DNA of 64,000 bases. Origin: Bacteroidota bacterium (GTDB taxonomy: Bacteria; Bacteroidota; Bacteroidia; SXHM01). The stretch's first letter is position 1. Every line of letters starts with the position of its first letter. The position numbers and the translations under genes are program-made. Below are positions 18,589 through 36,230 of this stretch, piece by piece. The notes under the pieces were generated by a model. That model had not been told where the DNA came from. It searched no databases and saw only the letters and a program-made list of their open reading frames with translations. The stretch covers positions 1 to 64,000 of the forward strand of contig CANKAM010000010.1 in the NCBI GenBank assembly GCA_947479755.1, in the 5' to 3' direction.

Positions 18589-19281
18589 ATGAGTGAACTT
18601 GTACTGGAAGCCCGGAATGTAAATAAGTATTTTCACGACCCTGTTACCAATCAGGTCTTGAAAGATGTAAATCTCACTATTGAAAAGGGTGTGTTTGCTA
18701 CGGTTATGGGTAAATCAGGCTGCGGGAAATCAACCTTACTCTATATCCTTTCTACCATGGATACCGAATATGAAGGTGAACTTTTTATTGACGGTGTGAA
18801 TATGCGCAACCGAACTGAGAAAGAACTAGCACGTGTGCGTAATGAAAAAATAGGTTTTGTTTTTCAGTTTCACTATTTGCTTAACGAGTTTTCTGTAATC
18901 AGAAATGTAATGTTACCCGGTTTGAAACTTGAAAAGTATTCAGAGAAGGAAGTGGAGCATAAAGCCTATGAAAAACTAAAACTTTTAGGAATTGAAAGCG
19001 AAGCATTGAAAAAGCCCAATCATCTTTCGGGCGGACAAAAACAACGTGTTGCTATAGCGCGTGCTTTAATTAATGACCCATTGATTATCATGGGCGATGA
19101 GCCCACCGGAAATCTTGACAAAAAAAACAGTGAAGTGGTATATGAAATTTTTAATGAGCTTGCAGAAAGGTACAATCAGTCATTGCTTATTGTAACCCAC
19201 GATCCCGAGTTTGCCAATCGCACCCACCGCATTATTGAAATGGTGGATGGCGCCATTACTAATATAGTTAAGATGAAATAG
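18589..19281 (+). CDS. ABC transporter ATPase, MacB/LolD type
   Basis: 230 aa soluble nucleotide-binding subunit: Walker [10 protein letters not shown] (residues about 38-46), Q-loop [10 protein letters not shown], signature LSGGQKQR, Walker [14 protein letters not shown] and the switch His in VTHD. It is the third gene of the adaptor-permease-ATPase operon and starts with no gap after the permease. Confidence 0.92.
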
Positions 19282-34582: not shown

Positions 34583-34738
34583 ATGGCAAAGAAAACCGTA
34601 GCAACGCTGAAATCAGGAACCGGAAGAAGTTTTACCAAAGTGATTAAAATGATAAAATCACCTAAAACCGGTGCATACTCTTTCAAAACAGAAGTAGTTC
34701 ACAACGACCACGTGAAAGATTTTCTGAAAGAAAACTAA
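34583..34738 (+). CDS. DUF4295 small basic protein
   Basis: 51 aa, starting MAKKTVATLKSGTGRSFTK and ending VKDFLKEN. It is the lineage-specific small protein that regularly follows rpmG in Bacteroidota and is therefore likely ribosome-associated. The gene is 29 nt after rpmG and followed by a clear terminator. Confidence 0.88.
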   Translation: MAKKTVATLKSGTGRSFTKVIKMIKSPKTGAYSFKTEVVHNDHVKDFLKEN

Positions 34739-34758
34739 TCAACAGCATAATGAATACA

Positions 34759-34791
34759 AAGCTTCTTTCTCCTCAGGAAGAAGCTTTTTTT
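34759..34791 (+). terminator. Intrinsic terminator of the rpmG-DUF4295 unit
   Basis: AAGCTTCTT at 34759-34767 pairs with AAGAAGCTT at 34778-34786 and is followed by T residues. It isolates the ribosomal unit from the GxxExxY gene and ftsY. Confidence 0.88.
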
Positions 34792-34801
34792 GTTTACTGA
34801 A

Positions 34802-34842
34802 TTAACCACAAAGATCACAAAGAAGGCACAAAGGTCGCAAAG
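34802..34842 (+). repeat. Left flanking repeat of the GxxExxY cassette
   Basis: Four spaced copies of a CACAAAG-type heptamer: ACCACAAAG, ATCACAAAG, GGCACAAAG and a diverged GTCGCAAAG. It ends 4 nt before the ATG at 34847. The same heptamers occur in inverted orientation after the gene. Confidence 0.85.
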
Positions 34843-34846
34843 AAAA

Positions 34847-35227
34847 ATGACTGAAAATGAACTTGCAAATAAGGTACTTGGTTTAGCTATTGAGGTTCAT
34901 CAAGCACTTGGTCCGGGATTGCTTGAAAGTGCTTATAAAGAAACCTTAGCCTACAAAATCAATAAATCAGGACTTTTTGTTGAAAAGGAAAAGCCTATGC
35001 CTCTCATCTTTGAGGAGGTAAAATTAGATTGTGGTTATCGCATGGACTTATTGGTTGAAAATAAATTAGTTGTAGAAATTAAGTCAGTTGATGCAATTAA
35101 TGATGTTCATCTTGCACAGGTATTGACCTACCTGAAACTCGGTGATTTTAAACTTGGTCTTTTACTAAATTTCAATGTTCCACTAATGAGGAGTGGTATA
35201 AAAAGAGTTATAAATGGAACATTATAA
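34847..35227 (+). CDS. GxxExxY protein (PD-(D/E)XK nuclease fold)
   Basis: 126 aa. The name-giving motif is Gly24-Leu-Leu-Glu27-Ser-Ala-Tyr30 in LGPGLLESAY. The nuclease-like core is Asp67 in YRMDLLVENK and Glu77-x-Lys79 in VVEIKS, followed by Gln91-x3-Tyr95 (QVLTYL), so the catalytic set looks intact. Family function is not established. An upstream in-frame start at 34790 would lie in the terminator T-run and the repeat, so ATG 34847 is preferred. The gene is enclosed by inverted CACAAAG repeats and lies between a terminator and ftsY, looking like an inserted cassette. Confidence 0.85.
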   Translation: MTENELANKVLGLAIEVHQALGPGLLESAYKETLAYKINKSGLFVEKEKPMPLIFEEVKLDCGYRMDLLVENKLVVEIKSVDAINDVHLAQVLTYLKLGDFKLGLLLNFNVPLMRSGIKRVINGTL

Positions 35228-35228
35228 A

Positions 35229-35273
35229 CTTTGTGGCCTTTGTGTAGATTTAACTTTGTGTCCTTTGTGGTAA
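35229..35273 (-). repeat. Right flanking repeat of the GxxExxY cassette (inverted)
   Basis: Read on the minus strand it is ACCACAAAG, GACACAAAG, then after a short AT-rich insert TACACAAAG and GCCACAAAG: the same heptamers as the left repeat in opposite orientation. It starts right after the GxxExxY stop and ends 6 nt before the ftsY ATG. Confidence 0.85.
35230..35258 (+). promoter_or_regulatory. Promoter-like sequence inside the right repeat, facing ftsY
   Basis: TTTG at 35230-35233, a 17-bp spacer and TAACTTTG at 35251-35258 fit the Bacteroidota consensus. Both boxes are made from repeat heptamers. Transcription would start near 35265, about 15 nt before the ftsY ATG. Confidence 0.5.
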
Positions 35274-35279
35274 AAAAGC

Positions 35280-36230
35280 ATGAATATTTTCAGCATATTT
35301 TCTAAAGACAAAAAAGAGAGCCTTGACAAAGGTTTGGAAAAAACACGCGAAAGTGTTTTCTCCAGACTTACCAAAGCTGTTGCTGGTAAATCAACAGTAG
35401 ATGCTGATGTGCTTGATAATCTGGAAGAAATCCTAATCAGCAGCGATGTGGGAGTTGAAACAACCCTGAAAATTATTGCCCTCATAGAAGAACGGGTTAA
35501 GAAGGATAAATACCTTGGTGCTTCAGAGCTAAACAGATTATTAAAAGAAGAAATTGCTTCGCTGCTTGCTGAAAACAACAGCGATGATGTAACTGAATTT
35601 ACTATTCCTGCAGGCAAAAAGCCTTATGTTATTATGGTGGTTGGTGTAAATGGTGTAGGTAAAACTACCACCATCGGTAAACTTGCCAACCAGTTGAAAA
35701 AGTCAGGTAAAAATGTGATGTTAGGCGCTGCAGATACTTTCAGAGCCGCAGCAGTTGACCAATTGAAAATATGGGGAACAAGGGTTGGAGTTCCTGTCAT
35801 TAATCAAGGCATGAATGCCGACCCCGCTTCGGTTGCTTTTGAAGCTGTTTCGGAAGCGGTGAAGCAAAATGCAGACGTGGTAATTATTGATACAGCAGGC
35901 AGGTTGCACAATAAAGTGAACCTGATGAACGAACTTTCAAAGATTAAGCGTGTTATGCAAAAGGTAATTCCCGATGCGCCTCACGAGATTTTATTGGTGC
36001 TGGATGCTTCAACCGGACAAAATGCAATTGAACAGGCTAAACAATTTACATTGGCAACAGAAGTAAATGCACTTGCATTAACCAAATTAGACGGCACTGC
36101 TAAAGGCGGTGTAGTAATTGGTATTTCTGACCAGTTTAAAATCCCTGTAAAATATATTGGAGTAGGCGAGGGAATAGATCACCTGCAGGTGTTCAATAAA
36201 AACGAGTTTGTTGATAGTTTGTTTAAATAG
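35280..36230 (+). CDS. ftsY: Signal recognition particle receptor FtsY
   Basis: 316 aa SRP-type GTPase that docks ribosome-SRP complexes to the inner membrane for cotranslational insertion. The short N domain is about residues 20-100; the G domain has G1 GVNGVGKTTTIGKLA, the insertion-box region AADTFRAAAVDQL, G3 DTAGR, G4 TKLDGTAKGG and the closing GVGEGIDHLQVF. It lacks the long acidic A domain of E. coli FtsY, as usual in this phylum. The usual upstream partners rpmG-DUF4295 are 0.5 kb away, separated by the GxxExxY cassette. Its 3' end overlaps the convergent TPR gene by 8 bp. Confidence 0.95.
   Translation: MNIFSIFSKDKKESLDKGLEKTRESVFSRLTKAVAGKSTVDADVLDNLEEILISSDVGVETTLKIIALIEERVKKDKYLGASELNRLLKEEIASLLAENNSDDVTEFTIPAGKKPYVIMVVGVNGVGKTTTIGKLANQLKKSGKNVMLGAADTFRAAAVDQLKIWGTRVGVPVINQGMNADPASVAFEAVSEAVKQNADVVIIDTAGRLHNKVNLMNELSKIKRVMQKVIPDAPHEILLVLDASTGQNAIEQAKQFTLATEVNALALTKLDGTAKGGVVIGISDQFKIPVKYIGVGEGIDHLQVFNKNEFVDSLFK

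Follow-up and report, generated by a model that had tools for sequence, protein, structure and literature searches.

Small elements with inverted ends are a known general idea, and both IS elements and MITEs combine such ends with autonomous and gene-less forms. REPIN/RAYT systems (PMC3116915) consist of small intergenic inverted-repeat hairpins that occur as dispersed gene-less copies, together with a single enzyme gene bordered by these repeats and a repeat type that matches the enzyme. Intervening sequences of 23S rRNA are ~0.4 kb long and carry one small open reading frame (ORF), encoding an S23p four-helix bundle, between complementary ends; their distribution is patchy and horizontal transfer has been inferred (PMC4990558). 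The locus described here shares these traits, and the best structural matches of its modeled protein fall in the Cas4/Hjc/lambda-exonuclease branch of the PD-(D/E)XK nucleases.

The locus lies in a 64,000-nucleotide stretch of a Bacteroidota genome (GCA_947479755.1, contig CANKAM010000010.1, positions 1 to 64,000 of the forward strand), hereafter the window. The original prediction, made from the letters of the window, described a GxxExxY gene closely bounded by four spaced heptamers on each side, in opposite orientation, which interrupts the rpmG-DUF4295-ftsY order and resembles a small mobile unit. Comparison with relatives leads us to conclude, with high confidence, that the GxxExxY gene and its arrays are a discrete mobile unit.

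Architecture of the cassette

The cassette and its neighbors are laid out in the window as follows:

34583..34738, + strand: DUF4295 gene, the left neighbor (context)
34758-34787: terminator-like hairpin of the DUF4295 gene, upstream of the cassette
34802..35273, no strand: whole cassette, ~472 bp, missing from the orthologous DUF4295-ftsY junction in G001, G002, G004 and G006
34802..34842, + strand: left array, facing the gene; TTAAC, then three CACAAAG (34807, 34816, 34827) and one CGCAAAG (34836), at spacings of 9, 11 and 9 nt
34847..35227, + strand: GxxExxY gene (TIGR04256, PF13366 PDDEXK_3), 126 aa
35229..35273, - strand: right array, inverted; four CACAAAG (35229, 35238, 35254, 35263), with GGTAA as the outer end
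35280..36230, + strand: ftsY, the right neighbor; 6 nt from the cassette end to the ftsY ATG

Profile matches for all four genes, namely L33 (PF00471), DUF4295 (PF14128), GxxExxY (TIGR04256 / PF13366) and FtsY (SRP54), place the cassette between DUF4295 and ftsY as predicted. Both arrays comprise four CACAAAG-type heptamers facing inward at the gene, and the predicted positions and orientations proved correct. The tight fit was borne out as well: the ATG at 34847 is 4 nt past the last left unit, and the first right unit is 1 nt beyond the stop codon (35225-35227). The outer ends of the cassette read TTAACC... and ...GGTAA.

The CACAAAG-type heptamer by itself was unenriched in the window (16 seen versus 13.8 expected), and it is the clustering of the heptamers, rather than their abundance, that is significant. 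Alignment of one arm with the other scored 19, compared with a mean of 6.6 (sd 1.4) for 3170 pairs of positions with the same spacing taken throughout the window. The sole near-rival, a match at 18821 with a score of 16, was rejected as a second array pair and attributed to chance because it lies within an ABC-transporter-like gene. No other comparable array arrangement was found in the 64-kb window. A sub-threshold Rfam match to PyrR (34676-34794) was likewise taken as chance. An open frame runs from the left array into the GxxExxY gene (34790-34847, with a TTG at 34790), and GxxExxY proteins can therefore acquire a repeat-encoded N-terminus (TTKITKKAQRSQRK) when starts are called automatically.

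The GxxExxY protein

The encoded protein matched TIGR04256 over positions 2-116 of 116 with 138.1 bits (cut-off 35) and PF13366 with 133.1 (cut-off 22). With Thr2 numbered as residue 1, D66, K78 and E26 (of GxxE) are invariant among 31 relatives and E76 is conserved in at least 90%, and a near-invariant G-x-G-x-x-E-x-x-Y stands near the start of helix 2. The layout of D66, E76 and K78 is that of PD-(D/E)XK nucleases, with both the D...ExK motif and the core alpha-beta fold present. The structure model is confident (pLDDT 94.8) and its best match was Cas4 SSO0001 (4ic1, Z 9.9), followed by Hjc (1gef, Z 7.1) and Cas4 (4r5q, Z 7.0), both of which are within the range common by chance. These results agree with the earlier view of a PD-(D/E)XK fold with intact-looking residues, and the protein is a predicted nuclease. 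It had no sequence homologue in the PDB. It is also distinct from CRISPR Cas4, as PF01930 scored 14.8 (cut-off 22.7) and the adjacent ORFs include no cas genes. Values of dN/dS among orthologous copies and close paralogues were 0.01-0.12, and such strong purifying selection on orthologous copies suggests a host benefit besides self-spread.

Arrays around other GxxExxY genes

We collected GxxExxY loci from class relatives, 80 named genomes of several phyla, the genus together with G012, and further multi-copy genomes. The main set comprised 120 non-redundant loci, and flanks 900 nt away at 105 loci served as a distant control. When each upstream flank was aligned with the reverse complement of its own downstream flank, the mean score was 19.05, versus 11.4 with the flanks of other loci and 9.6 at the control distance. 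Scores above the 99th percentile of the distant control were reached at 90 of the 120 loci but at only 1 of 105 at the control distance. Some of the other 30 (L003 and L112) have a hairpin complete on the upstream side alone. The median arm length was 43 nt, and the arms lie ~9 nt from the ATG and ~3 nt from the stop codon. Both cassette ends share the consensus TTAAC-CRCARAG.

GxxExxY genes are present in 70 of 100 genomes of the class, at up to 20 copies each. Arrays were seen in loci labeled Bacteroidota, Balneolaceae, Melioribacter, Chlorobiaceae, Planctomycetota, Spartobacteria and cyanobacteria, some of which are metagenome bins in which single labels may err. The genome of the window has three GxxExxY genes, all with arrays and each with a different word: CACAAAG in the window, CGC(A/T)AAG at the lepA site and CACATAG at the nitrilase site. 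The expectation that the same heptamer arrays would flank other GxxExxY genes thus holds for the arrays, which were found at 90 of 120 loci, but not for the heptamer, as each cassette has its own word. A different word, ACGAAT or ACGAAAT, makes up the arrays of L196 (G004), L205 (G002) and L305-L307 (G012), where the inversion across the gene is kept.

Specificity and co-variation of the repeat word

We scanned for pairs of CRCNNAG spaced 8-13 nt apart and within 160 nt of a gene. Such pairs accompanied GxxExxY genes at 90/120 loci but were absent from all 30 four-helix-bundle genes, all 22 ftsY genes and all 105 far controls; most were oriented inward (62 and 72 loci versus 18 and 19). Within single genomes, the strictly best partner of an arm was its own opposite arm in 57 of 76 cases (18 expected), with a mean score of 21.7 versus 11.7, which implies that the array word is not a host-wide repeat. 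Similarity of words tracked similarity of proteins, both across all loci after removing same-site pairs (Spearman 0.383; permutation maximum 0.132) and within genomes (Spearman 0.508; equaled in 0 of 1000 permutations). Hence, repeat words differ between copies in one genome, match across each gene and follow the protein.

Across 100 genomes, array triples numbered 119, versus 5 for a reversed-pattern control, in genomes with GxxExxY, and 5 versus 4 in genomes without. Counted by genome, the figures were 22 of 70 with GxxExxY and 4 of 30 without (p = 0.08); this test is weaker than it appears because more than half of the matches come from one genus.

Four-helix-bundle cassettes and a MITE

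TIGR02436 genes encode S23p/IVP-like four-helix bundles and occur in 81 of 100 class genomes, at up to 23 copies. Inverted short tandem arrays flank these genes too, forming analogous intergenic cassettes, with 93% of 30 loci from class relatives (L218-L247) exceeding the distant control. The vocabulary of these arrays is distinct, for example AGGTTCTAGGTGCTAG, GATGTCAGATGTCAG and GTATTGAGTATTGAG.

In G012, a ~190-bp MITE has recently spread to 18 sites (L255-L272); its ends are GTTACTATTCACCCC/GGGGTGAATAGTAAC and its target duplications are 8 bp long. Arrays of CACAGAG lie inside this MITE, and one GxxExxY copy (L192) lies within a related element, which has an 8-bp duplication of its own. 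We had considered the 18 near-identical arrays as a guide to cassette borders, which was abandoned when they proved to belong to a conventional MITE containing such arrays.

Occupied and empty sites

The ftsY site carries the cassette in the window and in G003, and the empty site sought in relatives was found in four of six congeners (G001, G002, G004 and G006), so the arrangement at ftsY is variable among relatives. In G005, the site upstream of ftsY (L079) holds another hairpin repeat (CACCCTGAACTTGTTTCAGGGTCTC...GATGCTGAAACAAGTTCAGCATGACG). Synonymous divergence at this site was 0.78 for the cassette gene and 1.20 for ftsY, which may reflect either shared descent with losses or transfer.

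At the nitrilase site, one CACATAG cassette is present in G000, G002 and G003, and the site is empty in G001, G004 and G005; G006 has a different GxxExxY cassette (CGCAAAG). The G000 and G002 cassettes are 98% identical, while the neighboring sequence is 83-88% identical directly at the borders. Synonymous divergence (dS) was 0.10 for the cassette gene, compared with 0.76 and 1.01 for the flanking genes, leaving out the G001 nitrilase value as an apparent frame artefact. Judged by these divergences, the cassette is far younger than its flanking genes, and it is missing from the closest relatives.

Cassettes also have gene-less counterparts. The lepA site has a gene-bearing cassette in G000, a gene-less hairpin in G003 and a stub in G001 and G006; in G004 it has a gene-less hairpin carrying the word of that genome's own L196 cassette. 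At another site (site B), a 75-nt hairpin is present in G000 and G001 and absent from G004. Gene-less inverted hairpins were recorded at L010 and L012 (G000), L249 (G003) and L251 (G004). In other genomes, sites of heptamer hairpins hold unrelated hairpin repeats (L277 and L279 at site B in G002 and G003; L286 at site A in G006), implying that these intergenic points behave as hot spots shared by several repeat families.

Orthologous sites were thus found both filled and empty, and the history of the element is unlike that of its flanks. The gene and arrays form one unit that enters or is missing from orthologous intergenic sites and moves horizontally as a sharply bordered block. Together, the empty sites, the block transfer and the gene-less hairpins support the predicted small mobile unit. 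No target duplication was demonstrable at ftsY. Site B alone has a candidate of 8 nt (TAAARATG), and junctions elsewhere are ambiguous. Comparing end flanks beyond the consensus revealed no regular mutual repeat and no consistent target-site duplication, and no common target sequence was evident at cassette borders. A 13-nt direct repeat at site C was dropped as a target duplication, being also part of another repeat. Phage origin was rejected with only 2 loci among 2.9 million viral contigs, as was plasmid carriage with 7 among 72,556 plasmid records.

Discussion

We propose that the element is a ~0.47-kb single-gene mobile cassette of the form 5'-TTAACC(RCAAAGNN)n - nuclease gene - inverted array - GGTTAA-3', in which the arrays would be the recognized ends. 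The GxxExxY protein, as a putative PD-(D/E)XK endonuclease whose core resembles that of Cas4 and Hjc, would bind the iterated words and cut either the ends or an extruded hairpin or cruciform. Host repair would then place a copy of the cassette in intergenic DNA, or a copy of a gene-less hairpin that is supplied in trans, often right behind stop codons or at pre-existing hairpins of this kind. By function, the cassette would be autonomous and the gene-less hairpins its non-autonomous derivatives, a relationship comparable to that of RAYTs and REPINs, although the enzyme is unrelated and the ends are iterated. Judging from comparative data, we see about even chances that the cassette is moved by its own GxxExxY nuclease, for which the specificity of the arrays, the co-variation of word and protein, and the preserved active site argue. 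The main argument against it is that four-helix-bundle genes, which are no predicted nucleases, occupy analogous cassettes with other words, and a resident nuclease is therefore unnecessary for the architecture. The inconsistent target-site duplications, the purifying selection on orthologous copies, the G012 cassettes inside a MITE-like element and the loci whose only complete hairpin is upstream (L003, L112) also weigh against it. Either two protein families may do one job, or both may be tenants of hairpins moved otherwise.

Tenancy would follow if the arrays were spread by host factors, repair or another transposase, with GxxExxY resident for some other purpose, for instance defence of the genome or rivalry among elements. 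The same architecture around four-helix-bundle genes with another repeat vocabulary fits this idea, as do the G012 cassettes within a MITE (ends GTTACTATTCACCCC, 8-bp duplications) and the strong purifying selection on resident copies. We nevertheless consider it rather unlikely: word and protein co-vary even inside one genome and the repeat class goes specifically with the gene family (90/120 versus 0/30), both of which an interaction between protein and array would predict and generic cargo would not, and most cassettes, including that of the window, have no enclosing transposon ends. The nuclease might also act by homing, cutting vacant intergenic or gene-less hairpin alleles rather than moving the ends, with the cassette then being copied by recombination to the corresponding site of other strains. 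One site is indeed reused by unrelated cassettes (at nitrilase, CACATAG in G000, G002 and G003 and CGCAAAG in G006), the lepA site is gene-bearing in G000 and a hairpin in G003, and a young cassette was transferred at the same site between diverged genomes. However, similar proteins and words also occur at unrelated sites, so same-site copying is not the sole route, and the borders have no evident shared target sequence. We regard homing as improbable.

Less probable again is that selection acts on RNA pairing instead of DNA ends, with the arms forming a long stem around the ORF in the transcript for RNase III to process. The cassette RNA does fold arm to arm (z = -4.75 versus shuffles), and 23S rRNA intervening sequences are likewise small-ORF elements with complementary borders (PMC4990558). 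Yet arm mismatches at 127 loci were not biased toward G.U (193 G.U-preserving versus 230 A.C), which makes the arms look like DNA features. Moreover, the element is intergenic and outside rRNA, and RNA pairing leaves both the heptamer iteration and the shared outer TTAACC unexplained. The least probable account is an immobile locus whose heptamers are operator or terminator sites of GxxExxY or its neighbors. Only a few nucleotides separate the arrays from the start and stop codons, and the gene is under strong purifying selection, both of which are compatible with regulation. Against this stand the orthologous sites that are empty or differently occupied, the block transfer (dS 0.10 versus 0.76-1.01 in flanking genes) and the existence of hairpins without a gene. 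Empty sites rule out static regulation as the full account, but it could have a secondary role.

Returning to movement by the cassette's own nuclease, we think it possible, at somewhat less than even chances, that GxxExxY proteins are the dedicated mobilization nucleases of an undescribed, phylum-crossing element class. Its iterated end words would diversify with the enzyme, the gene-less hairpins would be its non-autonomous members, and TIGR02436 cassettes would be a parallel class with another vocabulary. If so, much unexplained intergenic short-repeat DNA in Bacteroidota and other bacteria would be element debris. The cassette model would account for a body of hairpin-forming short repeats, and ends of its own would give a common family of "unknown function" a testable role. 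Small mobile DNAs, among which DDE and HUH enzymes predominate, would gain a member driven by a PD-(D/E)XK enzyme. In addition, the array words would supply a natural set of codes for the recognition of DNA by protein, each varying with its protein.

Comparison with known systems

Our search of the open-access literature, outside of which lie most subscription journals and preprints, found no account of GxxExxY cassettes. Papers naming GxxExxY did not concern repeats, matches to the repeat sequences were unrelated, and the literature on REP, intervening sequences and heptanucleotides offered analogues only. In contrast to IS elements and MITEs, the cassette has no DDE, HUH or recombinase gene, its ends are iterated and copy-specific, and no regular target duplication was demonstrated. 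The Cas4/Hjc branch differs in that GxxExxY is a stand-alone protein of 126 aa whose neighbors include no cas or recombination genes. Intervening sequences reside in rRNA helices, are excised from RNA by RNase III and encode another protein, whereas the cassette is intergenic (DUF4295-ftsY), its ORF is a predicted nuclease and its arm mismatches have no G.U bias.

REPIN/RAYT systems resemble the cassette in that gene-less hairpins of the same repeat kind occur in the same genome (e.g., G000, G003 and G004). However, a RAYT is a Y1/HUH tyrosine transposase, while the only gene of the cassette (PF13366 / TIGR04256) encodes a predicted PD-(D/E)XK nuclease. REPs are single palindromes, unlike the iterated 7-mers with locus-specific words that form the cassette arms, and the GxxExxY gene normally lies within the inverted pair as one 0.5-kb cassette. 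Enzyme class, iterated locus-specific ends and single-gene layout jointly match no system that we found, and the element appears to be of an undescribed kind.
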